Virus record (IMG/VR): IMGVR_UViG_3300040751_002124
Span: 1 to 24,697 of that record
Source of the DNA: a virus
Length of the DNA stretch: 24,697 bases
Direction: 5' to 3' (one strand)
This document shows, in pieces, positions 6,879 to 24,697 of this stretch (the first letter of the stretch is position 1; every line of letters starts with the position of its first letter). The position numbers and the translations under genes were made by a program. The notes beneath the pieces were generated by a model. That model was given only the letters and a program-made list of their open reading frames with translations, was not told the origin of the DNA and made no database searches.

Positions 6879-6884
6879 TAAATA
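6877..6884 (+). promoter_or_regulatory. T4-late-type promoter box GATAAATA abutting an ATG
   Basis: GATAAATA begins at the second base of the gp17 stop codon (TGA) and is followed by CAAT and then ATG at 6889. The expected start point, about six bases after the box, falls at or next to the A of the start codon, so the message for the next gene would be essentially leaderless. No ribosome-binding site is seen. Confidence 0.5.
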
Positions 6885-6888
6885 CAAT

Positions 6889-8994: not shown

Positions 8995-9612
8995 ATGAAA
9001 CTATTAATTTGTGGCGATAGTTATGCTCAAGAGAATTATGAATCATTCACTTGGCCTACTAAACTTTCAAAAAAATATGATACAACTAACTTAGCTCGTA
9101 ATGGTACAGGACCACAGTGGTCGTTAATACAATTAATCGATTATCTTGATTATAACGATACAAAAGATACAACAGTTTTATTCTTCGTATCATCACATAC
9201 ACGCATCGACTTGAAAGATCACCCAATAAGTGAGCAGTGGAAATTAAAATATTCTACAAATAAATATGTAAAATGGCTGTTTAAAAACTATATAACAACT
9301 GCATCATATGATCAAACAGAAAAAGATAAAATAATTTGCTTAGTTGCACAATATGCAAAATATTTTAAAAAGGTTTTGATATGGGATATTTTTGGAAAGA
9401 AATCAGATCTTGAATATTCTTTTTTACCTAATGTCACAGTTATAGACAAGTATGACTTATATACTATAGAATATAGAGAGAACCGTCCACCGCAAGATCA
9501 TTGCATTAATCATTTGCATAAAGAAAATCATGATATTATGTATGATATGCTAGATGCATGGATAGAAAAAAATATTGCAATTGATCCTAAAAAATTGCAA
9601 AAAATCAATTGA
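8995..9612 (+). CDS. SGNH/GDSL-like hydrolase
   Basis: 205 residues. The start 'MKLLICGDSYAQ' carries the block I nucleophile GDS (Ser9) directly after a beta-strand. 'NLARNGTGPQWS' fits block II/III glycine and asparagine positions. 'VLFFVSSHTRID' is a core strand. Near the C-terminus, 'DHCINHLHKENHDIM' offers the Asp-x-x-His-like catalytic pair of block V. SGNH proteins are esterases or acyl-transfer enzymes acting on lipids or O-acetylated sugars. No signal peptide is seen, so it acts in the cytoplasm or is carried on the virion. It lies 12 bases after the previous gene without a clear ribosome-binding site and just before the gp32 promoter region. Family assignment is fair; the exact catalytic residues are inferred. 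Confidence 0.65.
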   Translation: MKLLICGDSYAQENYESFTWPTKLSKKYDTTNLARNGTGPQWSLIQLIDYLDYNDTKDTTVLFFVSSHTRIDLKDHPISEQWKLKYSTNKYVKWLFKNYITTASYDQTEKDKIICLVAQYAKYFKKVLIWDIFGKKSDLEYSFLPNVTVIDKYDLYTIEYRENRPPQDHCINHLHKENHDIMYDMLDAWIEKNIAIDPKKLQKIN

Positions 9613-12097: not shown

Positions 12098-12553
12098 ATG
12101 GGTTGGTATTCTCAAGTATCTAGAGATGTTTCTAAGATTCCAGATGCTATACAATATTTTGAAAATGAACTTGTGAATGCAAGATCCGAAGTAAAATTAA
12201 AAGGTAATGTTGAACGTGCCGCGGCAGAAATGCCCGGTATCGTTGAGCATCGTTTTAATCAGCTTCAAGAAATTGAAGCAATCCTCAACTACTTAAACAT
12301 CGAGCTGCGTAGATTGCGTAGCTCGTACTTTAAAAAATATTTAGAAAACTATCAACGAGCTCTGTCAAGCCGTGACGTTGAAAAATACGTTGACGGTGAG
12401 GCAGACGTTGTTGACTATGAAAAGATTATTAATGAATTTGCTTTGATGCGTAACAAGTGGTTAGGAGTCTTGAAAGCTCTTGATCAAAAGCAATGGCAAA
12501 TTACTAATGTAGTCAAACTACGTGTAGCAGGAATGGAAGATGCTGTACTATGA
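12098..12553 (+). CDS. uvsY: Recombination mediator UvsY
   Basis: 151 residues from the ATG at 12098; upstream in-frame GTG codons would overlap the previous gene. T4 UvsY is 137 residues. UvsY forms ring oligomers that load UvsX onto gp32-covered single-stranded DNA. The sequence is mostly helical and charged: an N-terminal 'ELVNARSEVKLKGNVERAAA', a central 'IEAILNYLNIELRRLRSSYFKKYLENYQRAL', and 'EKYVDGEADVVDYEKIINEFALMRNKWLGVLKALD'. These match the pattern of marine UvsY proteins as I remember them. There is no ATP site, as expected for a mediator. Position after uvsX supports the call. The stop overlaps the next gene's start (ATGA at 12550-12553), so the glycan island is coupled directly to uvsY. 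Confidence 0.8.
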   Translation: MGWYSQVSRDVSKIPDAIQYFENELVNARSEVKLKGNVERAAAEMPGIVEHRFNQLQEIEAILNYLNIELRRLRSSYFKKYLENYQRALSSRDVEKYVDGEADVVDYEKIINEFALMRNKWLGVLKALDQKQWQITNVVKLRVAGMEDAVL

Positions 12554-13275
12554 GTTTAGGTGTTTGGTGGTTAGACGGGTATGCAGGTAATTATGGTGAC
12601 ATACTTACTCCCTATATTTTAGATCATTATAATATAAATCATCATTGGGTTTCTAGTTTGAGTAAATCTTTTGATGCTATATGTATAGGATCTATTATAC
12701 GTAGAGCACAGAAAAATACCATAGTATTAGGATCAGGAGTTATTTCAAAAAACGATAGAATAAATCCAAATGCTATTTTTAAATTTGTAAGAGGACCTCT
12801 TACAAGAGATAAAGTAATTTTACAAGGCGGTCAATGCCCTGATATCTACGGTGATGCTGCGTTACTATTGCCTGAAATTGTTAATCCTAGTACAAAGAAA
12901 TATAAAATCGGCATTGCACCTCATATAATAGATTTTGCATATACTAAACAAAATTATCCAGATTATAATGTTATAAATTTAAAAACAAAGAAACCGTTAG
13001 AAGTTGCGAAACAAATAACAGAGTGTGAATATATTATTTCTAGCTCACTGCACGGTTGTATTACAGCAATTGCTTATGGTATTCCGTGTGCATGGGTAAA
13101 AATAAAAAATAAATTAAAAGGTGATGACATAAAATTTTATGATTTTTTTGAATCTGTAGGAATAAAAAATGCTGAGAGATCTACTATAGAAAGTCCTAAA
13201 TTTTTTGATGCTGAATATAACACCACACTTATTAAAGAACAATTTGAGATATTAGCTAATGAAAAAAGACATTAA
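12550..13275 (+). CDS. Polysaccharide pyruvyl transferase-like protein (first copy)
   Basis: 241 residues. It shows the signature of the polysaccharide pyruvyl transferase (CsaB/WcaK) superfamily: an N-terminal 'NYGDILTPYIL' (residues ~14-24), a central 'RGPLTRDKV' and 'GDAALLLP' (~101-108), and 'IISSSLHGCITAIAYGIPC' (~162-180), where the Ser-x-His-Gly segment belongs to the second GT-B-like domain. Family members add ketal-linked pyruvate from phosphoenolpyruvate to wall or capsule sugars. The start overlaps the uvsY stop by four bases, and the end overlaps the next gene by 17 bases. A second, more divergent member of the same superfamily lies at 17810-18730. Activity and acceptor sugar cannot be read from sequence. 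Confidence 0.75.
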   Translation: MSLGVWWLDGYAGNYGDILTPYILDHYNINHHWVSSLSKSFDAICIGSIIRRAQKNTIVLGSGVISKNDRINPNAIFKFVRGPLTRDKVILQGGQCPDIYGDAALLLPEIVNPSTKKYKIGIAPHIIDFAYTKQNYPDYNVINLKTKKPLEVAKQITECEYIISSSLHGCITAIAYGIPCAWVKIKNKLKGDDIKFYDFFESVGIKNAERSTIESPKFFDAEYNTTLIKEQFEILANEKRH

Positions 13276-13906
13276 AAGATTTATGCAATACCAGCTTGTA
13301 GAAAAAGCTGTACAAGAAGCTGGTATTACAAATTATACAATTAACATAGATCATCAAAATGGATGGAATTATGTAAATGGTGTAAAACTTAACTTAAAAT
13401 ATCCTAAATCGTTTTTGACTCAGTGCAATCAGCTTAATAACGATAAAAAGTATTTGTATGGATTTAAAGGTGGTTTTACTGCCGGAAGTGCCGATTATCA
13501 TAGAACTAAACTTTTGCAAAAATATGTACAAAGACCAGATAGTAAAGTAGTTGATACAATGGTAGGAAGAAAACGTGCAAACAAAGCAGGATTCGATACA
13601 GAATATTATCAGTTACTTGCAAGCAGTTGGTTTAGTTTATGTCCTAATTGGGCAGGTAAGTGGTGGTCACATGATAATGCTTGGACATACAGATTTATAG
13701 AAAGTATGTTTGCAAGAAGCTTACCTATAGTTTTTAATGAAACACCGTTAGGAAAAAACTTTCAAAGAGATTTTCATGTTTTTGAAAATAACGACATACA
13801 TGACAAAGAAAACTATAAAGAAAAAATAGAATCTAATTATAAGAAAGCAGTTAATATTTGGACATTAAATGCAAAAGAAATAAAGTCGATTAAAAAACGT
13901 AGTTAA
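13259..13906 (+). CDS. Exostosin-like glycosyltransferase
   Basis: 215 residues. The C-terminal half contains 'LLASSWFSLCPNWAGKWWSH' followed by 'DNAWTYRFIESMFARSLPIVF'. This is the donor-binding pattern of exostosin/GT47-type GT-B enzymes, in which a small-residue turn leads to 'R-F-x-E-x-x-x-x-x-x-x-P-V/I' with the Glu contacting the nucleotide sugar. The N-terminal half is poorly recognisable and the protein is short for a full two-domain GT-B, so it may use a minimal fold. It starts inside the previous gene (17-bp overlap) and ends convergently with the sulfotransferase gene (17-bp overlap). Specificity is unknown. Confidence 0.6.
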   Translation: MKKDIKRFMQYQLVEKAVQEAGITNYTINIDHQNGWNYVNGVKLNLKYPKSFLTQCNQLNNDKKYLYGFKGGFTAGSADYHRTKLLQKYVQRPDSKVVDTMVGRKRANKAGFDTEYYQLLASSWFSLCPNWAGKWWSHDNAWTYRFIESMFARSLPIVFNETPLGKNFQRDFHVFENNDIHDKENYKEKIESNYKKAVNIWTLNAKEIKSIKKRS

Positions 13907-14501
13907 ATTCTTCTATTACTTTTCTATAAAGTTCACTTACCCTATTCTTTGTCATGTCGTTGTAATATACTTTATAATCTCGTTCTGTTCTTAAATCGCC
14001 CTTTAATTTTGTAGTTAACAATTCGTTGTTATAAGGTAAATTTAAAGTATTCATTACTTTTGCAAAGTCATCATTTAAGTTATGATACTGAATAGTAAAA
14101 TCTACAACAGGTTTATCTTTGTAGGTATATTCTTCCCAATCTTTTAAGTAAGGTGTTTTCTTACCATCCATTACAAATGTGTCAAACCCTTTTGCTGTTC
14201 TTTTTGGATTACGTTTTTTGACCCAGTGATAGTAACTTACAACTTTGTCCCAACTATTTCTTTCAACAGTAAAACGATAATAGTCTTTCCATGCATTAGG
14301 AAATCTTCTACTGATAAACACTCTCCCTCTGTGTTCTGCAACTTCATCTAAATTGATAGGATTCATATTTTCAGGAGGCATACCTCCAAATATTAAATTT
14401 TCATCATCTGCAATTTTATCAAGTAATATTTTTTCTATACTTGACCCTGCTGTTTTTTGTGTTTTTATAAAAATGAATTTGTATTTTGGAGAAATAATCA
14501 T
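13890..14501 (-). CDS. Sulfotransferase-like protein
   Basis: 203 residues from the ATG at 14501; the open frame continues upstream to 14630 but the first 43 codons would cover the divergent promoter and part of the next gene. The PAPS-dependent sulfotransferase fold is indicated by a 5'-phosphosulfate loop, 'FIKTQKTAGSS' (residues ~11-21), and a 3'-phosphate motif, 'RFTVERNSWDKVVSYY' (~76-91) with Arg81 and Ser83. A C-terminal 'YYNDMTKNRVSELYRKVIEEF' helix is typical of the Sulfotransfer_2 group acting on carbohydrates. It would place sulfate on a sugar hydroxyl using host PAPS. It is one of three minus-strand genes in the island and ends by overlapping the exostosin-like gene by 17 bases. 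Confidence 0.85.
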   Translation of the reverse strand: MIISPKYKFIFIKTQKTAGSSIEKILLDKIADDENLIFGGMPPENMNPINLDEVAEHRGRVFISRRFPNAWKDYYRFTVERNSWDKVVSYYHWVKKRNPKRTAKGFDTFVMDGKKTPYLKDWEEYTYKDKPVVDFTIQYHNLNDDFAKVMNTLNLPYNNELLTTKLKGDLRTERDYKVYYNDMTKNRVSELYRKVIEEFNYVF

Positions 14502-14509
14502 AGTAAAAT

Positions 14510-14517
14510 TATTTATA
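14510..14517 (-). promoter_or_regulatory. Minus-strand late promoter TATAAATA
   Basis: On the minus strand the exact T4 late consensus TATAAATA runs from 14517 down to 14510. The expected start is near 14504, three bases before the sulfotransferase ATG, so the message would be nearly leaderless. It overlaps the plus-strand late box at 14517-14524 by one base. Confidence 0.65.
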
Positions 14518-14530
14518 ATAAATATCTTTA
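14517..14530 (+). promoter_or_regulatory. Plus-strand late-type promoter AATAAATATCTTTA
   Basis: AATAAATA (14517-14524) is followed by TCTTTA. The 12-mer TAAATATCTTTA at 14519-14530 is identical to 4649-4660. The expected start is A14530, immediately followed by GGAG, so the leader would be ~13 bases that begin at the ribosome-binding site of the GSCFA gene. Confidence 0.6.
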
Positions 14531-14542
14531 GGAGAGCACAAT

Positions 14543-15583
14543 ATGAATAAACGTTTAGGAAAATCAAAGTTAATAAGTCAGCCGGCATTAAAAATGGACG
14601 GAATATTTGAACAAGAAGGCAAGAGTGCAAGTAGGTCTTTTTATAGAGGAGAAAATTGTAACTTTAATCCTTATAAAAAAGATTTTGCTAATGAGGATTT
14701 CTTACAAAATTATGTGCTAAAAGGTTGGCTTCCTGAAGAACCATTAATAGATCATGATACAAAAATTACAGCATTTGGAAGTTGTTTTGCTGCAAATATT
14801 TCTAAGCATCTAAGTACAGTTGGATATAATGTATCAAAAGATAAAAATACTGAAGTTTATATTAGCAGTATTGGCGAAGGATTAGTAAACGTACATGCTA
14901 TATTATCACAGTTTCGTTGGGCGTTTGATGGACATGTTCCTAGTCAGGAACTATGGCATGGATATAAAGCAGAAACATTTGAATACGATGAATCTATTAG
15001 GTTAAAAACTAAGGAAATATTTTTAAATACTGATTTCTTTATTATTACTTTAGGATTATCAGAAGTATGGTTTGATAGTGTAACTAATGAATATTTTTGG
15101 CGTGCAATACCGCAAGATAAATTCGATCCAGCAAGGCATCAATTTAAAGTGTGTAGTATGGCAGAATCTAAAGATGCTTTACAAAAAATATTAAACTATA
15201 TAAATGACAATGTTCCAAATGCAAAAGTTCTATTTACTATGTCACCTGTACCTTTAGCAGCAACGTTTAGACCTGTAAGTTGCCTTACTGCAAATTCAGT
15301 TAGTAAAAGTGTTCTACGAGCAGCACTAGATGAAATGATAAGAGACAATGAAGAACTGTTGAATAAGAAATTGTTTTATTGGCCTTCTTATGAAATTGTA
15401 AAAGAATTATTTGTTAATGAATTTACTGAAGACAATAGACATCCTCATCCTGATATTTTAGCAATGATTATGAGACTGTTTGAATCACAATACTGTCGTT
15501 CTAATATAGACGTAAATGAAATAGAAGCGCAGTATAAAAATATAAGAAAAAATAATATAGCTTCTGTAAAGCAATTCAAATAA
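14543..15583 (+). CDS. GSCFA-domain protein (SGNH-like)
   Basis: 346 residues. The family signature is literal: 'ITAFGSCFAANIS' contains G-S-C-F-A at residues 79-83. Further family features are 'FIITLGLSEVW' (~165-176), 'LFTMSPVPLAATF' (~240-250) and a C-terminal 'DNRHPHPDILAMI' that can supply the Asp-x-x-His of an SGNH-type active site. GSCFA proteins have unknown or poorly defined activity and are often next to polysaccharide genes; by fold they resemble carbohydrate esterases or O-acyltransferases. A GGAG ribosome-binding site lies nine bases before the ATG at 14543. It is divergent from the sulfotransferase, sharing a 41-base intergenic promoter region. The first ~70 residues are an extension without recognised motif. 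Confidence 0.85.
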   Translation: MNKRLGKSKLISQPALKMDGIFEQEGKSASRSFYRGENCNFNPYKKDFANEDFLQNYVLKGWLPEEPLIDHDTKITAFGSCFAANISKHLSTVGYNVSKDKNTEVYISSIGEGLVNVHAILSQFRWAFDGHVPSQELWHGYKAETFEYDESIRLKTKEIFLNTDFFIITLGLSEVWFDSVTNEYFWRAIPQDKFDPARHQFKVCSMAESKDALQKILNYINDNVPNAKVLFTMSPVPLAATFRPVSCLTANSVSKSVLRAALDEMIRDNEELLNKKLFYWPSYEIVKELFVNEFTEDNRHPHPDILAMIMRLFESQYCRSNIDVNEIEAQYKNIRKNNIASVKQFK

Positions 15584-15605
15584 ACAATTTTGAGTTATAG
15601 TAGCA

Positions 15606-15619
15606 TATAAATATCATTA
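15606..15619 (+). promoter_or_regulatory. Late promoter TATAAATATCATTA abutting an ATG
   Basis: An exact TATAAATA (15606-15613) is followed by TCATT and the ATG at 15619. The expected start point, six bases past the box, is the A of the start codon. TAAATATCATTA differs by one base from the 12-mers at 4649 and 14519. There is no ribosome-binding site, so a leaderless message is predicted. Confidence 0.7.
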
Positions 15620-16386
15620 TGAAAGTAGTATTAGTTACAGGCGGATTTGATCCTCTGCACAGTGGACATATTGCATATTTTAAAGCAGCAAGAGAATTAG
15701 GAGATCATCTTGTAGTTGGACTCAATTCAGATGCTTGGCTTACACGTAAAAAAGGTCGTCCGTTTATGCCTATGGAAGAACGGGCTGCTATTATAGAAGC
15801 ATTAGAATGTGTAGATGAAGTTATTGCATTTGACGATAGCGACAACACAGCATGTGCTGCTATTATGCAAGTTTTATCTACTAAAGCTACATCTTGGGAA
15901 GTTGTATTTGCAAACGGCGGCGATAGAACAAACACCACAACACCAGAATACGAAACATATGGTGATAGAAAAGATGTACATTTTGCGTTTGGCGTCGGCG
16001 GCGAAGATAAAAAGAATTCAAGCAGTTGGATATTAAAAGAATGGAGTCAGCCTACCACAGAACGTGCATGGGGCAGATATACTGTCCTTGACAAAGGCGA
16101 AGGCTGGCAAGTAAAACAACTTGCATTTGACGCAGGTAAAGCCCTTAGCGATCAGAGACACTTTAATCGTTCAGAACATTGGCATGTTGTTGAAGGACAA
16201 ATATCAATGGCATTAGAATCTCCTACTGGCTGGAAAGTAACAAAAGAGTGTGAGTCTGGAGATAGTATAGATATACCTGTACACACATGGCACAAAGCAA
16301 CTAATGTTGGTAGTAAAACTGCTCGAGTAATAGAAGTATGGATGGGTAACGAACTTACTGAAGAAGATATTGAAAGAAGAGATTAA
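15619..16386 (+). CDS. Nucleotidyltransferase-cupin (type II mannose-6-P isomerase) fusion
   Basis: 255 residues in two domains. Residues 1-~138 are a cytidylyltransferase-like domain close to the C-terminal half of HldE: GGFDPLHSGH (8-17) is the HxGH nucleotide site, 'GLNSDAWLTRKKGRP' and 'PMEERAAIIEALECVD' follow in order, and 'FANGGDRTNTT' (~98-107) corresponds to the GGD segment. Residues ~146-250 are a cupin matching the C-terminal isomerase domain of ManC-type proteins (ERAWGRYTVLDKGEGWQVK, then SDQRHFNRSEHW and PVHTWHKA). Metal ligands His181, Glu186 and His187 are visible. The His that often follows as QxHxH is Asn183 here. Together the domains could isomerise a sugar phosphate and activate a sugar-1-phosphate. 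The substrate is inferred only. The stop overlaps the next start (TAATG). Confidence 0.85.
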   Translation: MKVVLVTGGFDPLHSGHIAYFKAARELGDHLVVGLNSDAWLTRKKGRPFMPMEERAAIIEALECVDEVIAFDDSDNTACAAIMQVLSTKATSWEVVFANGGDRTNTTTPEYETYGDRKDVHFAFGVGGEDKKNSSSWILKEWSQPTTERAWGRYTVLDKGEGWQVKQLAFDAGKALSDQRHFNRSEHWHVVEGQISMALESPTGWKVTKECESGDSIDIPVHTWHKATNVGSKTARVIEVWMGNELTEEDIERRD

Positions 16387-17057
16387 TGAAAGTATTTGTA
16401 GGATATGACACTAGAGAAGATATTGCATATCAAGTTTGTAAACACAGTATTAAAACTAAGAGCAAATTAGCTGATGTACGTCCGTTAAAACAACAGGAAC
16501 TACGTGACGCAGGATGGTATACAAGACCAATAGATAAACTAGCAAGTACAGAGTTTACATTCACACGTTTCCTTATACCAGAACTTATGAACTTTAAAGG
16601 TTGGGCTGTGTTTATGGACTGTGATATGATTCTTACAACAGATATAAAAGAACTGTTTGATCAAGCAGACGACAAGTATGCAGTTATGTGTGTACAGCAT
16701 GATTACACACCCAAAGAAGGCACAAAGATGGATGGTCAAAAACAAACCATTTATCCACGTAAGAATTGGTCAAGTGTGATGTTGTTTAACTGTGCGCATC
16801 CTAGTAATGCAAAACTTACTATGGATCTAGTTAATAATCCTGAAATAAACGGAGCATATTTACACAGATTTAGTTGGTTAAAAGATGAAGAAATTGGAGA
16901 ATTGGACCACACTTGGAATTATCTTGTTGGTGTTTATGATGACATTGATACACCCAATTTGATACATTACACAGAAGGCGGGCCATGGTTTGAAAACTAC
17001 AGGGATTGTGAGTTTAACGAACTTTGGAAAAAAGAATTGTATGATATGTTTAAGTAA
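16386..17057 (+). CDS. GT-A (GT8-like) glycosyltransferase
   Basis: 223 residues. The N-terminus 'MKVFVGYDTREDIAYQVCKHSI' is the nucleotide-binding strand and loop of GT8-like enzymes. The metal-binding D-x-D is MDCDM at residues ~77-81, preceded by 'FTRFLIPELMNFKGWAVF'. 'NWSSVMLFNCAHPSN' (~126-140) and 'LDHTWNYLVGVYDD' near the C-terminus match acceptor and donor-site positions of the fold. It transfers a hexose or related sugar from a nucleotide donor. No membrane segment is seen, so it acts in the cytosol or loosely at the membrane. It is coupled to both neighbours: a one-base overlap upstream and a 17-base overlap downstream. Confidence 0.8.
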   Translation: MKVFVGYDTREDIAYQVCKHSIKTKSKLADVRPLKQQELRDAGWYTRPIDKLASTEFTFTRFLIPELMNFKGWAVFMDCDMILTTDIKELFDQADDKYAVMCVQHDYTPKEGTKMDGQKQTIYPRKNWSSVMLFNCAHPSNAKLTMDLVNNPEINGAYLHRFSWLKDEEIGELDHTWNYLVGVYDDIDTPNLIHYTEGGPWFENYRDCEFNELWKKELYDMFK

Positions 17058-17808
17058 AAATCTTACAGACGAATATGTCAATATGTTTGCCAAAGGTGCC
17101 GGACTTCCTATACAGGATTATGATTCAGACTATGGTAGTAATCCTATACTAATTAGAAGTATGGGCAAAAGGAAACTTATAAAACAGTGCTGGCAAAATC
17201 AACATACCTTTTATTATATGGATAGCGGTTATGTTGGAAACTATAAGTCTGCAAATAATCCAAATGGTTGGAAATATTACCATAGAATTGTAAAAAATGA
17301 TGTGCAGCATAGTGATATAATAGATAGGCCTGACGATAGATGGAAGTCATTAGACTATCCTATAGAAAATAGGAAATCAGGAAGGCACATTTTGTTAGTA
17401 ACACCTTCCGAGAAGCCATGTAAATTTTATGGTATAGAAAGAGATAGTTGGGTAGAAGAAACAGTTGCAGAAATAAAAAAGCATACAGATCGTCCTATTC
17501 GTATTAGAGACAAAGCATCGAGACAGCAACGTATTACAAAAACAATATTTCAAGATTTAGACGATTGTCACGCACTGGTGACATATCAAAGCATAGCAGC
17601 AGTTGAAAGTGTATTATATGGTGTCTCAGCGTTTACACTAGCGCCTACAGCAGCTGATCCAGTATGCGATAAGGATCTGAGCCTGATCGAAGCTCCAACA
17701 CAACAAGATCGCGATAAAATATATAAATGGGCCTGTCATTTAGCATATGGTCAATTTCATATAGAAGAATTTAAAAATGGTAGTGCATACAAATTATTAA
17801 AAGGATAA
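17041..17808 (+). CDS. Capsule-synthesis-like protein, paralogue 1 of 3
   Basis: 255 residues from the ATG at 17041, which overlaps the previous gene by 17 bases; an ATG at 16990 would overlap by 68. It shares an ordered set of motifs with the products at 18727-19626 and 22246-23094: 'RKSGRHILLVTPSE', 'EIKKHTDRPIRIR', 'ALVTYQSIAAVESVLYGVSAF' and 'LSLIEAPTQQDRDKIYKWACHLAYGQFHIEEFKNGSAY'. The pattern (Pro/Arg strand, Ser-rich turn, small-residue helix, Gly-Val/Val-Ser strand) resembles the second domain of KpsC/KpsS-type capsule glycosyltransferases (Capsule_synth family). In this copy the His-Pro after the TDRP strand is replaced by RDKAS, so it may have altered activity. Function is inferred from similarity of pattern only. 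Confidence 0.6.
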   Translation: MICLSKNLTDEYVNMFAKGAGLPIQDYDSDYGSNPILIRSMGKRKLIKQCWQNQHTFYYMDSGYVGNYKSANNPNGWKYYHRIVKNDVQHSDIIDRPDDRWKSLDYPIENRKSGRHILLVTPSEKPCKFYGIERDSWVEETVAEIKKHTDRPIRIRDKASRQQRITKTIFQDLDDCHALVTYQSIAAVESVLYGVSAFTLAPTAADPVCDKDLSLIEAPTQQDRDKIYKWACHLAYGQFHIEEFKNGSAYKLLKG

Positions 17809-17809
17809 A

Positions 17810-18730
17810 ATGATGGTTAGGCCAATAGTAGTTCATAGATTAGATAAAAACAATGTAGGTGATATGGCTAGCGACCCGCTAAGGTATTTTATGCCAGGCA
17901 AGTATGATGTAATAGATGTAGCCGAATTGCATTCTGCAAAATACGATCATAATAGACCTATTATAGTAGGCGGCGGCGGACTAATTGCTAATGACTTTAT
18001 AGGAGATTCGATTAAAAGAGTCTTATCTTCAAACGATTACAATCAATTATTACAAGTTGCTAATAATGCATGGGATGTAAGTGATCCTAATAATACACAA
18101 TTACGCTCTCGATTTATGGAGCAATTACAGGAACTTGTTAGAAATTATATTATACAATTAAAACAAAGTACAAATGCTCCTAGGATTGCATGGGGTATAG
18201 GACACAATGCAGATGCAGGCAAACGGCCAAAAGGAATTGAATATCCTGATTGGTTAGTATGTTTTGACAAACTAGGAATAAGAGATTTTAACCAACAGTA
18301 TCCTTATGCACCATGTGCAAGTTGTATGCATCCTGCATTACGTAAAAAGTATCCTATAAAAAACGAAATAATTTGGTTTGAGCACAAAAAACAATTGCTA
18401 AAGTCTACAGACTTTGGTCCATATAGTATACCAAGATTTGTTAATAGTGGTGCTAATATAGAACAAACAATAGAATTGTTAGGTAGTGCAAATGTTATTA
18501 TTACTAACAGTTATCATGGTGCTTACTGGGGTATGTTGTTAGGTAAAAAAGTTATTGTACAGGACAGTTGGAGTACTAAATTTTATTATATGAGACCATC
18601 ACCTGCAATGGCAGCGAAAGGAACAAAATTAGAAGATTTAATTCCTACTGTGAAAGTGCATACCACTGCTCTAGATGAATGCATAAACATTACAGAAAAA
18701 TATTGGGCAGATGTAAAGGGGATGCTTTGA
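17810..18730 (+). CDS. Polysaccharide pyruvyl transferase-like protein (second copy)
   Basis: 306 residues, nearer the usual length of the family than the copy at 12550. Features: 'NNVGDMASDPLRYF' (~14-27), 'PIIVGGGGLIANDF' (~50-63), 'RIAWGIGHNAD' (~125-135) and 'VIITNSYHGAYWGMLLGKKVIV' (~229-250), with the Ser-x-His-Gly motif shared with the first copy. A Cys pair 'APCASCMHPAL' lies near 168-177. The expected role is addition of pyruvate ketal or a related group to a polysaccharide, although members with other activities exist. AAGGA upstream supports the start, with a second ATG immediately following as the alternative. The stop (TGA) overlaps the next gene's proposed TTG start. Confidence 0.75.
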   Translation: MMVRPIVVHRLDKNNVGDMASDPLRYFMPGKYDVIDVAELHSAKYDHNRPIIVGGGGLIANDFIGDSIKRVLSSNDYNQLLQVANNAWDVSDPNNTQLRSRFMEQLQELVRNYIIQLKQSTNAPRIAWGIGHNADAGKRPKGIEYPDWLVCFDKLGIRDFNQQYPYAPCASCMHPALRKKYPIKNEIIWFEHKKQLLKSTDFGPYSIPRFVNSGANIEQTIELLGSANVIITNSYHGAYWGMLLGKKVIVQDSWSTKFYYMRPSPAMAAKGTKLEDLIPTVKVHTTALDECINITEKYWADVKGML

Positions 18731-19626
18731 AACAAGTAGTAGCATATGCAGCAGGAATACCTAATCCTCACAAAGGAGGACATAAGTTAGAAATCCTCAA
18801 GAGATTTATCGACGGTGTAAAAGTCAAAGGCGACATAGGCATTGTTCATAATGGCAACAATATTGTCAAATGCGATGTAGGTGTAATCCAAGGTTGGGTA
18901 CATGAAGGTAGTCCGAATACACCTCATTTACGTCTTAGAAAACAGGCAGCAGAAGCAGGCAATTGTATTATTGTAGACAGTAACTTATTCAATTATAATG
19001 TAGGCAAACTTCATCCTATGCAATATCTTAGATATAGCCTCAATGGAGTTTTTCCAACTACAGGTAATTATTTTGATTCAGAAGTAAATCCAGCAAGATG
19101 GAAAAAGATAAGCAAAGACTTAAACATACACCTTAAAGACTGGAGGCAAACAGGCAATCATATCCTAATTTGCACACAGCGCAATGGCGGTTGGAGTATG
19201 CAAGGATTAGACGTTGTTCAATGGGTAAAAGGGACTGTACAAGAATTAAGAAAATATACAGATAGACCTATTATTGTTAGAGGACATCCTGGTGACAAAC
19301 ATGCAAGAAACTATCTTAGAAATAATGGATGGAAAATAAGTAACAAGGAACGGTTAACTGACGATTTGCAAAATGCATGGGCAACAATTACATACAATAG
19401 CAGTCCAGGTGTAGCTAGTGCTATAGAAGGCGTGCCTATTTTTGTTACTGACCCAAATCCAAAAATTAGTCAAGCATTTCCTGTATCTAATACTCAACTT
19501 AAAGATATAGAAAATCCTAAAACTTATGAAAGACAAGAGTGGATTGAAAAATTATCAATGAGTCATTATAACTTTTTTGAACTATCAAATGGCATTGCAT
19601 GGGAACACATAAGGAAATATGTATGA
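18727..19626 (+). CDS. Capsule-synthesis-like protein, paralogue 2 of 3
   Basis: 299 residues from a TTG at 18727. This start is preferred because AAAGGGGA lies just upstream and TTGA overlaps the previous stop; the in-frame ATG at 18679 would overlap by 52 bases. Shared motifs with the other two copies are 'LKDWRQTGNHILICTQRN', 'ELRKYTDRPIIVRGHPGD', 'ATITYNSSPGVASAIEGVPIF' and 'LKDIENPKTYERQEWIEKLSMSHYNFFELSNGIAW'. The 'RGHP' and 'SSPGVASAIEGVP' elements are intact, fitting KpsC/KpsS-like capsule glycosyltransferases. The N-terminal ~90 residues (VVAYAAGIPNPHKGGHKLEI) have a Gly-rich loop typical of GT-B enzymes. It overlaps the next gene by four bases (ATGA). Confidence 0.65.
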   Translation: MKQVVAYAAGIPNPHKGGHKLEILKRFIDGVKVKGDIGIVHNGNNIVKCDVGVIQGWVHEGSPNTPHLRLRKQAAEAGNCIIVDSNLFNYNVGKLHPMQYLRYSLNGVFPTTGNYFDSEVNPARWKKISKDLNIHLKDWRQTGNHILICTQRNGGWSMQGLDVVQWVKGTVQELRKYTDRPIIVRGHPGDKHARNYLRNNGWKISNKERLTDDLQNAWATITYNSSPGVASAIEGVPIFVTDPNPKISQAFPVSNTQLKDIENPKTYERQEWIEKLSMSHYNFFELSNGIAWEHIRKYV

Positions 19627-20351
19627 AAATTATATGGTCAGGATTAGCAGATGCAAAATATTATGAATATATTGCAAAGTATTGTTTACCATCTTGGAGT
19701 AAATTACCCGGAGCAAAATATATTGTTCATGATAGCAACTTAATTAAAGACGACCATCTCACAGTAGTAGATTGGAGAGCAGTTGGTAATTATAATGCAC
19801 CTTTTTGGAAAATACAAAAGGAAAGAAAAAAGACCAATAACTTTTGGCGCAAGATGCAAGCACAAGTATGGGCAATGCGTAATCTAAGAGACTGTGACTT
19901 TTTAGTTTTATTTGATACTGATATAGAAGTTTTAGATTTTGACAATGAATTATTCGAACAAGAGCTAGAAAACTTTAAAGCAAGCGGATACATATGGGCA
20001 ACTGGTAGATCTCAATCAAGGTTACACGATAGTGGATTTATTGTAATTGATGTTAATCACCCTCAATTAGACGAATTGACAAACCATTATGAAAACATTT
20101 GGGATAGCGGCGGCATATTTGATCTACGTAAATCTTATGACGGACATGCTGTAGAAAGTATGTTTCCTACCTATCCTTCATATAAAATAATGAATACTGA
20201 CTATGGCAAAGGTTTACACATTTATCCTGTAGGCGTAGTACATTGGGGAAGTAAATTGCCAAAACAATTGCGTCGAGAATGGACAGGCGAAACTAAAGAT
20301 CTTATCGCAAAGAGATTGTCTGAAGTAACAGTGAAGACCTATAAAAATTAG
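19623..20351 (+). CDS. GT-A-fold glycosyltransferase with DTD motif
   Basis: 242 residues from the ATG at 19623 (ATGA overlap with the preceding stop, AAGGAA upstream). 'RDCDFLVLFDTDIEVLD' (~89-105) carries the metal-binding Asp-x-Asp. 'FWRKMQAQVWAMRN' just before it is the helix that usually precedes this strand in GT-A enzymes. 'HDSGFIVIDVNHP' (~140-152), 'SYDGHAVESMF' and 'HIYPVGVVHWGSK' follow in the order expected for donor and acceptor contacts. The enzyme would transfer a sugar from a nucleotide donor; specificity is unknown. It converges on the minus-strand glycosyltransferase with a four-base overlap of stop codons (TTAG shared). Confidence 0.75.
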   Translation: MKIIWSGLADAKYYEYIAKYCLPSWSKLPGAKYIVHDSNLIKDDHLTVVDWRAVGNYNAPFWKIQKERKKTNNFWRKMQAQVWAMRNLRDCDFLVLFDTDIEVLDFDNELFEQELENFKASGYIWATGRSQSRLHDSGFIVIDVNHPQLDELTNHYENIWDSGGIFDLRKSYDGHAVESMFPTYPSYKIMNTDYGKGLHIYPVGVVHWGSKLPKQLRREWTGETKDLIAKRLSEVTVKTYKN

Positions 20352-21196
20352 CTACGCCAATATGTTTCATTTCTGTTAACCATAATATCAGAAGTTTTAG
20401 ATTTTCCGGTAACTTTCCTATCACCTTTCATATGGTCAATCCATTTACCTAACACAGTGTTAATTAAAGGATGGCCTCCACCGCCTGATTTAGCTTCCTT
20501 TAAATACATTTCGGCGCTGTAATCTAGTACATTTGGATGAAGCAATTTCATACGATTTACAATATCTCCGAAAATAAAACTATCGTGCCATTCGACTAAT
20601 TTGAACATACCATTTTCTGCGTCTTCGTACATACGTTCAAATTGTTTTAGAAAATCTTTACAAGTGTTATCTTTTAAATTCATTCCATAAAATCCGCACT
20701 CTGGCCAAGTTTGCGATCCTTTACCTCTTCCTACATATGTAATCCAGCTTGTTTCCGGCAGTAGTTCTTTAAATTGGTCATATGTCCAGTCGCTATGTAC
20801 AAATGTATCTGCATCCATCCATACACACCAATCTTCGCTACGCTCGCAAGCATCAAATACTGCATATACTTTATTAGCAAATCTTATAGCATCCCATTTG
20901 AACTTTTTCTGCCAGTCTTTGCGGCCTCGTCTTGCAGGATGATTTGTAATATCTCCATTTGCATAAGGCACAGATCTCCATTTAGCTTTAAAGGCATTAA
21001 GTTTAGGAAGTACTTCTTTAGCATTTAGTACTGTAATATTTTCACACATAGGATCTACACTAGGAGAACAATCTTCAGCATATACTAGTAATTTTATGCG
21101 TTTGTCTACACGTTCTGCAAAACTGTCTAAAAATCTTTGTCCATAAAGATCTAATCCCGGTTTATGAAATGTTGTTACTACAGTAATATTGCTCAT
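20348..21196 (-). CDS. GT-A-fold glycosyltransferase with DAD motif
   Basis: 282 residues. The N-terminal strand 'ITVVTTFHKPGLDLYGQRFL' and the metal motif 'DWCVWMDADTFVH' (Asp-Ala-Asp at ~128-130) are typical GT-A features. 'KKFKWDAIRFANKVYAVFDA' is the preceding helix. 'GFYGMNLKDNTCKDFLKQFE' and 'WHDSFIFGDIV' (~200-210) fit the acceptor side. It begins with AAGGAAAC as ribosome-binding site and follows the epimerase gene on the same strand after nine bases, so the two probably form a two-gene operon: one makes the sugar nucleotide, the other uses it. Sequence pattern differs from the GT at 19623, so they are probably not recent duplicates. Confidence 0.75.
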   Translation of the reverse strand: MSNITVVTTFHKPGLDLYGQRFLDSFAERVDKRIKLLVYAEDCSPSVDPMCENITVLNAKEVLPKLNAFKAKWRSVPYANGDITNHPARRGRKDWQKKFKWDAIRFANKVYAVFDACERSEDWCVWMDADTFVHSDWTYDQFKELLPETSWITYVGRGKGSQTWPECGFYGMNLKDNTCKDFLKQFERMYEDAENGMFKLVEWHDSFIFGDIVNRMKLLHPNVLDYSAEMYLKEAKSGGGGHPLINTVLGKWIDHMKGDRKVTGKSKTSDIMVNRNETYWRS

Positions 21197-21205
21197 TATG
21201 TTTCC

Positions 21206-22207
21206 TTAAATTAATTTGTCTTTCCAGGTAAGTGGAGTTTTTTCATTTATAATTTCTAGAGGAAAGTTATACTTAAACGGAAGTGTTCCTCTATTTTTTA
21301 TATAAGATGTTGTTAACTTTATCGAGTTATGCAAACTAGTTTTTGTTTCGTATCCTAAAAGCTTTCTTGCTTTGTCACTGCTACACATTGCATGTTTAAC
21401 TTCTGTTGGCCTATCTGTTGTGTGTATAGGGTCTTGATTACATCCTGTTTCATTTGCTACTAGCTTTGATAATTCTTTAATAGTTATAGTTTCTTCGTCA
21501 GGTCCAATATTAATAGTTTCGCTTACTAGATTACTATTCAATGCCATTTCTTGTAAACAGTCAACACAATCGTCTACATAACTAAAACATCTTGTTTGAA
21601 GCCCATCGCCGTATATTATACTAGGCTTTCCTTGTAAATTTCTATTAATCATTATACTCATGACATTTCTAAAAGGATCGTCGTATCTCTGCCTAGGCCC
21701 TACAATGTTATGCGGAACAGCAATATTCCATTCCATGCCGTGAGTGTTAGATAATGCTTTAAGTATATCTTCTCCTGCAACTTTTGCAATTCCATACGGA
21801 TCAACAGGCGCCGGTGTCATGTCTTCAGTAAAAGGTGCTAACTGATTACCGTATCGTGCCATACTTGTACAGTAGACAAATCTTTTTACTTTGTTTTGTA
21901 TTGCTGCACTAATAGTTGATACAGATGCTTGAAAAATATTTCTAGTTATAAAGTCTGGACTAAAAACACTTAAACCTTCATGTGCAGTAGCAGCAGTGTG
22001 AATTACAATATCAGCACCAGACATTATGTCTGCCATTCGAGAATTGTCACAACAGTCTACTTTGTAAAAGTCAACATTTGGATTTACATTATCTTCGTAG
22101 CCGCCAATTAGTGTATCATTTCCAGACACACTATGACCTAATTCTAAAAATCTATCAGCTAAGTGGCTACCTAAAAATCCAGCAATTCCAGTTATAAAAA
22201 TGTGCAT
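21206..22207 (-). CDS. NAD-dependent nucleotide-sugar epimerase/dehydratase (extended SDR)
   Basis: 333 residues, the normal length for the family. The NAD-binding Rossmann motif is TGIAGFLGS (residues 6-14). The catalytic triad is visible: Ser115 in 'VYCTSMARYG', and Tyr138/Lys142 in 'DPYGIAKVAGED'. 'VPHNIVGPRQRYDDPFRNVM' and 'CFSYVDDCVDCLQEMAL' are the usual substrate-binding and closing segments of UDP-hexose 4-epimerase-like enzymes. It would epimerise or dehydrate a UDP-, GDP- or dTDP-sugar; which one cannot be told. It is the first gene of a minus-strand pair with a glycosyltransferase. A minus-strand CAAAGG lies ~5-10 bases upstream of the ATG, and a late-like GTTAAATA lies at 22244-22237. 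Confidence 0.93.
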   Translation of the reverse strand: MHIFITGIAGFLGSHLADRFLELGHSVSGNDTLIGGYEDNVNPNVDFYKVDCCDNSRMADIMSGADIVIHTAATAHEGLSVFSPDFITRNIFQASVSTISAAIQNKVKRFVYCTSMARYGNQLAPFTEDMTPAPVDPYGIAKVAGEDILKALSNTHGMEWNIAVPHNIVGPRQRYDDPFRNVMSIMINRNLQGKPSIIYGDGLQTRCFSYVDDCVDCLQEMALNSNLVSETINIGPDEETITIKELSKLVANETGCNQDPIHTTDRPTEVKHAMCSSDKARKLLGYETKTSLHNSIKLTTSYIKNRGTLPFKYNFPLEIINEKTPLTWKDKLI

Positions 22208-22236
22208 TAAAAACCTTTGTAAATAGCATATAGGAA

Positions 22237-22244
22237 TATTTAAC
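22237..22244 (-). promoter_or_regulatory. Minus-strand late-like box GTTAAATA
   Basis: On the minus strand GTTAAATA (22244 down to 22237) is the same box as at 4647-4654. It lies ~30 bases before the epimerase ATG, leaving a ~24-base leader that contains the CAAAGG ribosome-binding site. Two mismatches to TATAAATA make this a moderate call. Confidence 0.4.
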
Positions 22245-22245
22245 T

Positions 22246-23094
22246 ATGAGATTTAGTTTATGGACAAATTATGGCGCACTTAATAGTAAGCCAGTATTTC
22301 AAGCATTTGCAGATAGTTTAAAGTCTGCAGGGCACACTGTAGTTTATAACGACAATAAAAGCGATATAGATGTTATATGGAGTGTGCTTTGGAATGGCAG
22401 AATGACTAATAATAAACTAATTTGGGAAAGCAATAGGAAAATTAATAAACACACTATTGTTTTAGAAGTAGGTGGAATAAAACGTGGAACAACATGGAAA
22501 GTGGGATTGAATGGAATTAATAGAGATGCTTATTTTGGTCCTTCCGGTAACGATAATACTAGGGCAGAGCATTTGGGTTTGCGCCTTGGTGATTGGAGAA
22601 AGTCTGGGGATTATATCTTAATTTGCGGACAGCATGATAAAAGTTTACAATGGCGTAATATGCCACGTATGAGCAATTGGTTTTTACAAACCTACGATAC
22701 AATACGCAAACATACTGACAGACCAATTATATTCCGTCCGCATCCACGTTGTAGATTAGAACACATTGAACGTGGCTTACGTTATGTAGAAAGACAAGAA
22801 CCAAGACATTTGGAGGGCACCTATGACGATTTTGATATGGGCTTTGATAATGTATATTGCACTGTTAGCTGGAGCAGCAATCCTGGGATTCATAGTGTCA
22901 TCAACGGGGTTCCTGCTTTTGTTGGCCCTTCTTCTCTTGCTTATGATGTAGCAGGACACGATCTAAATTTAATTGAGTACCCACAAACACCAGACAGAAC
23001 ACAATGGCTAAATGATTATGCTTGGACAGAATACACTGTTGAGGAAATAGCAAACGGATTGCCTTTAAAACGATTGACATCTAAGCTACATTAA
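22246..23094 (+). CDS. Capsule-synthesis-like protein, paralogue 3 of 3
   Basis: 282 residues. The same ordered motifs as in the genes at 17041 and 18727 are present: 'LGDWRKSGDYILICGQHD', 'TIRKHTDRPIIFRPHPR', 'CTVSWSSNPGIHSVINGVPAF' and 'LNLIEYPQTPDRTQWLNDYAWTEYTVEEIANGLP'. 'FRPHPR' and 'SSNPGIHSVINGVP' look like an intact KpsC/KpsS-type donor site. The N-terminal part (residues 1-90) has its own sequence, 'SLWTNYGALNSKPVFQAFADSL', and is the most variable region among the three copies, as expected if acceptor specificity has diverged. It is divergent from the epimerase gene with 38 bases between them. No clear plus-strand promoter box or ribosome-binding site is visible in that gap. The end overlaps the promoter of the next gene. 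Confidence 0.65.
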   Translation: MRFSLWTNYGALNSKPVFQAFADSLKSAGHTVVYNDNKSDIDVIWSVLWNGRMTNNKLIWESNRKINKHTIVLEVGGIKRGTTWKVGLNGINRDAYFGPSGNDNTRAEHLGLRLGDWRKSGDYILICGQHDKSLQWRNMPRMSNWFLQTYDTIRKHTDRPIIFRPHPRCRLEHIERGLRYVERQEPRHLEGTYDDFDMGFDNVYCTVSWSSNPGIHSVINGVPAFVGPSSLAYDVAGHDLNLIEYPQTPDRTQWLNDYAWTEYTVEEIANGLPLKRLTSKLH

Positions 23095-23108: not shown

Positions 23109-24335
23109 ATGAACATTGTAGCTGAAACTATCGAAGATCTTCTTGAAATACTTGCAGGATTAAAATTAAAGCCTGTCATAAAAATAGAATCTAATGATGC
23201 AACTATTATGCATAGCATCGCTAGACAGACTTTTAGAGGCACTGCTTTAACAGATAGACAATTTAATTTGATGCAAGAAAAATTACTTCATTACCGCAAA
23301 GACTTTATGGAGTTAGGATATAATTTTGATCTTGCTCTAGAAACACTTAGACAACCTTTACGCCAAATTGATAGAAGTAAATTTATCAAACTAGTTAAAA
23401 CTTCAGATGTATTTCAAGACCAAGTTTACGAAAGTTACAAAACCGACTGGGCATGGGTACAAGTAAGATTTCCTTTTAGTAAAACCTTAATAATGAAAAT
23501 TAACAGTATTAGAGCTGTAAGAGATTACGTACACCATAAAGGCGAACATTCACACTATTTTAAGTTTAATGAAAAAAATGTAAAATCTATTATAGAAGCC
23601 TTTTCAAATTCTAATTTTGAAATTGAAAAAGATATTTTAGACTATTATGAAAAAATTAAAATAATAGAAAATTCAAAAGAGGAACATATTCCTTCGATTA
23701 AAAATTGCCAACTAGTAAATGTAAACCAAAATGCTAAAAAGTTAATTGCCAACGAAATTGGCGAAATTTCTAAAAACAATATTTTACAATTAATTGATCG
23801 TAAGAATAGATACGGAATAACAAATTTTACATATACAAATCAAAAAGGCACATTACAAGAAACTATTGCTTTAAGAGAAAGCAGAGATATACTTTTTAGG
23901 CCTAATGAATATAAATTAAATGATGTATTGTATGCACTAAATGATTTAAATAGGTATCCTTTGTTATTTGTACTTGACGAAATACATGCTGAAAAACAGT
24001 TACATCAAACTTTTAATTTTTATAAAGATTTTATACCTGCTGAACAGCAGAGTGTGCTTTTTAGACTTGAAGGAAGCGACCAAGAATTTAATCAAATGGT
24101 TAAAGATTATAAAATTAATAATTGGGTTGACAGTTCTACAAAGATAGTGTATACTAGTGTTAACAAAATTCCAAAAGTTTTATTTAAAGCAGACTGGCAA
24201 CCTATTGCAACAGTTTCATTTAATAGTAAAACAAATAGAAATTTAGATTTATATACAAAAACTTATTGTGACTTAATAATATTTTATGATAATGAAATAA
24301 GTCCACTTAGAAGGTATTCAAGTTATTATGTCTAG
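23109..24335 (+). CDS. Conserved phage protein upstream of uvsW, function unknown
   Basis: 408 residues, not recognised as a known family. The N-terminal part is helical and charged (AETIEDLLEILAGLKLKPVI, 'RGTALTDRQFNLMQEKLLHY'). A middle segment 'WAWVQVRFPFSKTLIMKIN', then 'VHHKGEHSHYFKFNEKNVKSII', contains a His-rich patch. The C-terminal third has an alternating strand-helix pattern: 'YPLLFVLDEIHAEKQLH', 'EQQSVLFRLEGSDQEFNQMV', 'STKIVYTSVNKIPKVLF' and 'CDLIIFYDNE'. 'VLDEIHAE' resembles a helicase Walker B (DExH), but no Walker A is present in this protein, so it is not a complete ATPase by itself. Position directly upstream of uvsW and a strong early-type promoter suggest a replication or recombination role; that is inference. 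It overlaps uvsW by eight bases. Confidence 0.7.
   Translation: MNIVAETIEDLLEILAGLKLKPVIKIESNDATIMHSIARQTFRGTALTDRQFNLMQEKLLHYRKDFMELGYNFDLALETLRQPLRQIDRSKFIKLVKTSDVFQDQVYESYKTDWAWVQVRFPFSKTLIMKINSIRAVRDYVHHKGEHSHYFKFNEKNVKSIIEAFSNSNFEIEKDILDYYEKIKIIENSKEEHIPSIKNCQLVNVNQNAKKLIANEIGEISKNNILQLIDRKNRYGITNFTYTNQKGTLQETIALRESRDILFRPNEYKLNDVLYALNDLNRYPLLFVLDEIHAEKQLHQTFNFYKDFIPAEQQSVLFRLEGSDQEFNQMVKDYKINNWVDSSTKIVYTSVNKIPKVLFKADWQPIATVSFNSKTNRNLDLYTKTYCDLIIFYDNEISPLRRYSSYYV
24127..24155 (+). promoter_or_regulatory. Internal sigma70 promoter for uvsW
   Basis: Inside the 408-residue gene, TTGACA (24127-24132), a 17-bp spacer and TATACT (24150-24155) repeat exactly the hexamers and spacing of the promoter at 23074. 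The predicted start, near 24162, gives uvsW a ~165-base leader. Exact conservation within coding sequence argues against chance. Confidence 0.8.
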
Positions 24336-24697
24336 TTGTAAACTTATAATTGAAGATGAAGTAAACATCAAACTAGAAGGACTAGAGGTAGATGTCAGAC
24401 GAAAGCTCGCCAATGCTCTTAAGTTTGAAGTACCATATGCACGTTATATGCCGCAATACAAACTAGGACGCTGGGATGGCAAAGTTGCTTTCTTTGGCAT
24501 TGGCGGCACAGGATATGTCAATCATCTTGATACTATTGTTTCAGTACTTGAAAAAAATAAAGTTCAAATAGTAGACATTGAAGATAGACGACATCCTGTA
24601 CAATTAGACTTTCAGCCTATTGACGAACGCTACTGGGCAGACCAGGGTGTTGTATGGCCTAAAGGTCATCCAGCAGAAGGCGAAGAGATTATTCTAC
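24328..24697 (+). CDS. uvsW: UvsW helicase, N-terminal part (3' partial)
   Basis: The ATG at 24328 overlaps the previous stop by eight bases, and the frame runs open to the window end (123 complete codons), so the helicase domains lie beyond it. The visible N-terminal domain, 'DVRRKLANALKFEVPYARYM' followed by 'YKLGRWDGKVAFFGIGGTGY', matches the small double-stranded DNA-binding domain of T4 UvsW (the 'RxNPxxxxGxWDG' pattern). UvsW is a superfamily 2 helicase that remodels branched DNA, regresses forks and removes R-loops, switching the phage from origin-dependent to recombination-dependent replication. Transcription probably comes both from 23074 and from the internal promoter at 24127. Spelling of the rest of the protein cannot be checked here. 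Confidence 0.88.
   Translation, partial: MSSCKLIIEDEVNIKLEGLEVDVRRKLANALKFEVPYARYMPQYKLGRWDGKVAFFGIGGTGYVNHLDTIVSVLEKNKVQIVDIEDRRHPVQLDFQPIDERYWADQGVVWPKGHPAEGEEIIL

Follow-up and report, generated by a model that had tools for sequence, protein, structure and literature searches.

We analysed a viral DNA of 24,697 bases, the IMG/VR record IMGVR_UViG_3300040751_002124 in its entirety (hereafter the window), in which a T4-like backbone of neck and packaging genes, gp17, the virion protein gene vs2, gp32, uvsX, a small open reading frame (ORF) and uvsY is followed by 13 glycan-related genes, a gene for a 408-amino-acid (aa) protein (U408) and the start of uvsW, within which the record terminates. 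A preliminary description of this DNA had placed a 13-gene glycan island at 12550-23094, with recombination genes on both sides, and had viewed it as a self-contained pathway that might act on the host surface or the virion. All 13 ORFs are present there, and Pfam supports the assignments of I1, I2, I4, I5, I6, I8 and I12 and PHROG that of I3; gp32, UvsX and UvsY do lie upstream, and the N-terminus of UvsW downstream. These genes and their neighbours are given below, with the fraction of complete uvsY-uvsW intervals in which each was found.

12098..12553 (+), uvsY, recombination mediator and left boundary; its stop overlaps the I1 start (PHROG 231, 3e-17)
12550..13275 (+), I1, polysaccharide pyruvyl transferase (PF04230 PS_pyruv_trans, 4e-13); accessory, 8/72
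13259..13906 (+), I2, exostosin-like glycosyltransferase (GT47) with only part of the domain (PF03016, 7e-9); accessory, 3/72
13890..14507 (-), I3, sulfotransferase (PHROG 3347, galactose-3-O-sulfotransferase, 4e-13); accessory, 6/72
14543..15583 (+), I4, GSCFA-family, SGNH-like protein for putative acyl transfer or hydrolysis (PF08885, 2e-39); accessory, 1/72
15619..16386 (+), I5 (NT-cupin), HxGH nucleotidyltransferase (NT) fused to a type-II mannose-6-phosphate-isomerase-like cupin; core, 72/72
16386..17057 (+), I6, GT8-type glycosyltransferase (PF01501, 5e-7); core, 69/72
17035..17808 (+), I7 (cap7), paralogue resembling transferases of 3-deoxy-D-manno-octulosonate (Kdo), both donor-site motifs lost; core, 72/72
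17810..18730 (+), I8, second pyruvyl-transferase-like protein (PF04230, 3e-6, a short match of 39 aa); accessory, 5/72
18679..19626 (+), I9 (cap9), Kdo-transferase-like paralogue with RxHP; core, 72/72
19599..20351 (+), I10, GT-A-like protein with a DTD motif; accessory, 4/72
20348..21196 (-), I11, GT-A-like protein with a DAD motif, whose orientation flips among relatives; core, 72/72
21206..22207 (-), I12, NAD-dependent nucleotide-sugar epimerase/dehydratase (PF01370, 1e-45); accessory, 4/72
22246..23094 (+), I13 (cap13), Kdo-transferase-fold paralogue with RPHP present and the Asp of QxxxD absent; core, 72/72
23109..24335 (+), U408, conserved protein beside uvsW, judged to be backbone (hhalign to a 212-aa Phosso protein)
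24337..24697 (+), uvsW N-terminus, cut at the record end and assigned from sequence and position

Relatives were collected from IMG/VR by uvsY, NT-cupin and U408 queries, which gave 72 distinct complete uvsY-uvsW intervals of 6.7-15.8 kb from about 60 independent lineages. NT-cupin, cap7, cap9, I11, cap13 and U408 occurred in every one of them and GT8 in 69, and the order of the core genes (NT-cupin, GT8, cap7, cap9, I11, cap13) was constant. The NT-cupin and U408 queries bias this sample toward the core. A search by uvsY only carries no such bias, and it too showed the core in every complete interval (15 relatives and the window); eight longer uvsY loci without NT-cupin all end short of uvsW. 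Only 1 to 8 of the 72 intervals carried any one of the other seven window genes (both pyruvyltransferases, exostosin, sulfotransferase, GSCFA, the I10 GT-A and epimerase), and their slot was filled in relatives by FkbM and other methyltransferases, GT25, UDP-glucose dehydrogenase and more. GT8 and cap7 were fused into one protein in 13 loci, which argues that the two function jointly, and when the records of six relatives were searched whole the best-scoring I13-type matches all lay at this locus. Distances between uvsY and the core genes were positively but modestly correlated (0.13-0.50), so the case for shared ancestry rests on synteny and monophyly; recombination is likely. Judging by gene content and order, a whole clade of marine jumbo T4-like phages shares this glycan-assembly locus, with a fixed six-gene core and variable decorating genes.

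The comparison of uvsY-uvsW intervals had been suggested in the preliminary description, which would have given up its pathway if relatives carried all the genes separate and unlinked. The six core genes were always linked and in order, while the rarity of the seven accessories partly bears that doubt out. The self-contained 13-gene pathway itself does not survive: every gene for capping by pyruvate, sulfate or acyl groups is among the seven found in at most 8 of the 72 relatives, and supply genes for the activated donor CMP-Kdo (CMP, cytidine monophosphate) lie outside the island, beyond uvsW.

Among the island proteins, I3 has motifs of the 3'-phosphoadenosine-5'-phosphosulfate type (KTQKTAGSS, RNSW), and its ORF of 13890-14630 is probably over-extended at a TTG start. 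In I5, Pfam recognised a cytidylyltransferase-like domain (PF01467, 9e-16) and a MannoseP_isomer cupin (PF01050, 1e-20), and the motifs of both are conserved. I7, I9, I10, I11 and I13 had no accepted Pfam match; I10 and I11 each contain a DxD motif and aligned together, marking them as GT-A-like. Outside the island, between vs2 and gp32, the window also encodes an SGNH-hydrolase-like protein (8995-9612; GDSY motif near its start), a possible further sugar-acyl enzyme; some loci have weakly similar proteins in the corresponding position.

The NT-cupin gene also occurs in bacteria, in SAR86 and in many SAR11 genomes; in the SAR11 loci inspected (L266-L336) the fusion is a conserved chromosomal gene between polA and a major facilitator superfamily (MFS) transporter gene. 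These SAR11 and SAR86 contexts did not identify the I5 substrate. Rhodobacteraceae Water_Bin34, UBA4009 and Neomarinimicrobiota PBPT01 were rejected as host evidence, as they look like phage contigs in bins. In four loci (L257, L258, L259 and L265), binned into Rhodobacteraceae and Bacteroidetes metagenome-assembled genomes, NT-cupin lies near a divergent terminase (about 31% identical) of a different phage lineage.

UvsX was closest to that of the cultured jumbo phages Atu_ph07, Phosso and Vibrio 2.275.O (62-67%), and among the window's relatives are contigs of 357 and 342 kb, so there is little doubt that the record is one piece of an uncultured marine jumbo phage genome. Its uvsY was 82-93% identical across the best 80 IMG/VR relatives, and megablast of the window against named phages returned no close relative. 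The 357-kb relative also carries a GOLLD RNA within a 24-tRNA array and a permuted transfer-messenger RNA (L103 8839-9303; L105 15184-15629).

In the stretches compared, RaK2, CBB, Atu_ph07, Phosso and Vibrio 2.275.O share the gp17-gp32-uvsX-uvsY backbone of the window (UvsX up to 67% identical), and uvsW comes next in Phosso, CBB and Vibrio 2.275.O, although it was not seen within the Atu_ph07 stretch. The order is uvsX-uvsY-exonuclease-uvsW in Vibrio 2.275.O and Pectobacterium CBB, and uvsY, three unknown genes and then the helicase in Sinorhizobium phage Phosso; unlike the window, none of these three has glycan genes in the uvsY-uvsW interval. U408 is homologous to a 212-aa Phosso protein of the same interval (hhalign E 5e-6, probability 86), which places the insertion between uvsY and U408 and U408 in the backbone; a 501-aa Phosso protein was rejected as its counterpart. 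By these gene orders the island is a genuine insertion between uvsY and the U408-uvsW pair, so that the location first described holds except that U408 intervenes before uvsW. A fold search with U408 (AlphaFold2 model, predicted local distance difference test (pLDDT) 89) gave weak helicase-like matches and no convincing known fold. In one more distant relative (L339 3068-4826; uvsY 72% identical) a GT8 gene lies a short way past uvsY, an arrangement that may represent an intermediate step in how the island arose.

The three capsule-like paralogues (I7, I9 and I13) form one family, and the fold of I13 supports the capsule-synthesis-like label that they had been given. Its AlphaFold2 model (pLDDT 95, predicted template modelling score 0.90) matched in Foldseek, as its top 26 Protein Data Bank (PDB) chains, only retaining beta-Kdo transferases (WbbB, KpsC and KrkA; E 2e-7 to 2e-4, template modelling score on the query 0.44-0.57). 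The model thus has the modified GT-B fold of these enzymes, to which I7 and I9 are linked by sequence family only. No PDB sequence was matched significantly by the family profile; PF05159 (Capsule_synth) had no match in the window and gave only sub-threshold hints in relatives. In retaining beta-Kdo transferases the covalent nucleophile is the Asp of QxxxD (PMC12887879, PMC10148158), and (K/R)xHP binds CMP (PMC12887879). RxHP was present in 19/19 I13 and all core I9 rows of our alignment and absent from I7; I9 and I13 retain the Gln of QxxxD without the Asp, and I7 has neither the Gln nor HP. A fourth, accessory sister clade, found in relatives and absent from the window, has QxxxD in 15/15 and RxHP in 14/15, and each of the four paralogue groups is a single clade with full support. 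Because the core copies lack a defining catalytic feature, I7, I9 and I13 are not classed as retaining Kdo transferases, though they resemble members of the superfamily in fold (I13) and CMP site (I9 and I13).

We also located motifs resembling T4 late promoters in the island:

14510..14517 (-), late-promoter-like TATAAATA, directly upstream of I3
14518..14524 (+), late-promoter-like ATAAATA, upstream of I4
15606..15613 (+), late-promoter-like TATAAATA of the core operon, 5 nt before the I5 start codon

Shuffling yields 15 copies of the T4 late-promoter core ATAAATA where the window has only 8, and TATAAATA shows no overall excess in the window; the signal lies in placement, seven of the eight ATAAATA copies being near gene starts. 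Across loci, ATAAATA preceded every vs2 and vsp gene, 71% of gp16 genes and 67/137 NT-cupin genes (49%), and was upstream of 0/94 uvsX, 0/119 uvsY and 0/71 U408. When one base was left free, the proportion reached 71% for NT-cupin (expected 16%), whose spacer lengths were concentrated at 5 and 8 nt, and about 41% for I11 and I13 (expected 7-9%), and uvsW was at background. In the 357-kb relative, motif-bearing genes included those for sheath, tube, baseplate, fibre and other virion proteins; a small number of non-structural genes, ribonucleotide reductase among them, had the motif as well. The core operon begins with a TATAAATA-like promoter, as T4-type late genes do, and from the placement of the motif on NT-cupin and virion genes, and not on uvsX, uvsY or U408, we infer that the core is probably transcribed late. 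The motif ends 4-5 nt before the start codons of I5 (15606-15619) and vs2 (6878-6889), a spacing that would give nearly leaderless mRNAs.

A PF02348 search led to a gene past uvsW. In seven records covering this region, KdsA adjoins a KdsB-type cytidylyltransferase in six, and L348 has neither:

kdsA-kdsB pair, downstream of uvsW: L344 6798-8899; L345 7309-8734; L346 8402-10523; L347 8212-9637; L349 7858-9970; L350 12042-13542; L351

KdsA exceeded the TIGR01362 equivalog cut-off in four genomes; the KdsB-family models were the best matches to its neighbour, yet this gene fell below their cut-offs, and PDB relatives were consistent with both assignments. Of the 19 loci that extend 7 kb or more beyond the uvsW start, 16 contained both genes, which in most relatives lie 2-6.5 kb past uvsW. 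Both are present also in L351, a near relative whose sequence continues beyond the point where the window stops (89% DNA identity in uvsW, 93% in the UvsW N-terminus). An SIS-family KdsD was not found in five phage records; KdsA occurs in other marine phages too. A small conserved cupin and a 170-aa protein accompany the kdsA-kdsB pair.

Taken together, these observations most likely reflect a Kdo-type glycan made late in infection, for the host envelope or the virion, either of which is a plausible site, with a weak preference for the envelope. Our tentative model is that the glycan is built on a host envelope glycolipid intermediate. Phage KdsA and KdsB would raise CMP-Kdo in infected cells, with arabinose-5-phosphate and the Kdo-8-phosphate phosphatase supplied by the host; NT-cupin would activate a second sugar or polyol phosphate; and GT8 and the GT-A enzyme would assemble a short chain, to which I9 and I13 would add CMP-activated (Kdo-type) residues, I7 being a degenerate partner of GT8. 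The accessories may then cap the chain, in the window with pyruvate, sulfate and possibly acyl groups and in relatives frequently with methyl groups. Searches of the phage records revealed no Bac_transf or Polysacc_synt (Wzx-type) gene, which suggests that the host supplies the carrier and export steps. Hydropathy predicted no membrane protein among the 13, and so no membrane transporter of the Group 2 capsule export type; an island that supplies soluble enzymes only would place its product either on a host-flipped carrier or on a protein in the cytoplasm, for instance a virion component. The likeliest acceptor is a glycolipid intermediate of the lipopolysaccharide (LPS) core type, which host machinery would then flip, and a surface so altered late in infection might no longer bind progeny or competing phages. 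We prefer the envelope because Kdo with methyl, sulfate and pyruvate caps is envelope chemistry, and soluble enzymes can extend the LPS core at the inner face of the membrane.

Several observations weigh against this model. The QxxxD position reads mostly QH[DE]xS in I13, QRxGG in I9 and PSxx[PV] in I7, and the loss of the catalytic Asp leaves donor and mechanism unsettled. The kdsA and kdsB genes were seen in relatives, the window ending too early to show them, and they stand at background for the late motif. L348 (same record as L070), which lacks both beside uvsW, keeps the core without GT8, so Kdo may not be the sole donor. Late expression would suit decoration of the virion equally well: the enzymes could modify a capsid, tail or fibre protein while it is still in the cytoplasm and give the particle a Kdo-type coat with strain-variable decoration. 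The core operon shares its late motif, at nearly the same spacing, with a virion-protein gene, and the soluble look of all island proteins and the missing exporters also fit. The acceptor protein is putative, however, the methyl, sulfate and pyruvate decorations, like Kdo, are typical of cell-envelope glycans, and soluble LPS-core assembly with a host flippase accounts equally well for the missing exporters; we consider a coated virion possible, though less probable than envelope modification. An extended form of this idea, that the core paralogues are a new CMP-ulosonate glycosyltransferase family without a covalent nucleophile that, with phage KdsA and KdsB, coats the virion in a Kdo-based strain-variable glycan, seems unlikely; if true, it would be a virus-encoded 'capsule' for the particle itself.

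The variability of the accessory part, its AT-richer composition at 12.5-15 kb and the similar clusters already known would also suit cargo of a hyperplastic region, of the kind proposed for cyanophages and pelagimyophages: horizontally shuffled LPS and capsule genes with no fixed product and at most a role in superinfection exclusion. The constant order of six genes across about 60 lineages and the monophyly of each paralogue speak against such shuffling, which we regard as improbable. DNA glycosylation is known in T4-like phages, and the nucleotidyltransferase and glycosyltransferases could in principle hypermodify phage DNA. The thymidylate-synthase-family genes of two long relatives, however, read PFN, which we take to denote thymidylate synthase and not deoxycytidine monophosphate hydroxymethylase, the promoter motifs are late rather than early, and the fold is of the KpsC/WbbB type, making action on DNA very improbable.

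Like known phage LPS/capsule clusters, the island groups genes for glycosyltransferases and for nucleotide-sugar enzymes within a phage genome. Cyanophage clusters of the P-SSM2 type (Iyer et al. 2021, PMC7824862) likewise contain glycosyltransferases, HIGH-type nucleotidyltransferases, cupins and epimerases and have a proposed surface role; they are described as sporadic and polymorphic, whereas here a syntenic core is common to the whole clade and the island centres on a Kdo-transferase-fold family. The pelagimyophage host-recognition cluster (PMC7029224), in the parts of that report available to us, is a hypervariable, glycosyltransferase-rich island with prominent GT8 and a superinfection hypothesis, as here, but it lies between VrlC and gp14 instead of between uvsY and U408-uvsW, and those parts mention no KpsC-fold core. 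Phage-borne Kdo precursor genes are also shared with a marine virus carrying Gmd, WcaG, ManC, NeuA, KdsA and WaaG (PMC5332604) and with Synechococcus phage S-SCSM2R (KdsA/KdsB); a link to a conserved transferase module was not seen in the portions of these sources that we covered. WbbB (GT99), KpsC (GT107) and KrkA (GT140) resemble I13 in fold, and I9 and I13 in (K/R)xHP, and differ in the nucleophile Asp that the core copies have lost.

Within partial literature coverage we found no publication describing this locus. Phage LPS/capsule clusters with a superinfection hypothesis, and phage kdsA, are already known; what is new is the syntenic clade-wide core, its Kdo-transferase-fold family in which the nucleophile has been lost, the association of the core with KdsA/KdsB, and the evidence from late-promoter motifs. 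A specific, testable hypothesis results, with CMP-Kdo as donor, late timing, and host envelope versus virion as the site, and a branch of the Kdo-transferase superfamily that has lost its nucleophile could show how such unusual enzymes evolved. Phage sugar clusters are usually viewed as shuffled cargo, whereas the six-gene core described here is, within its marine jumbo-phage clade, as constant as its recombination-gene neighbours.

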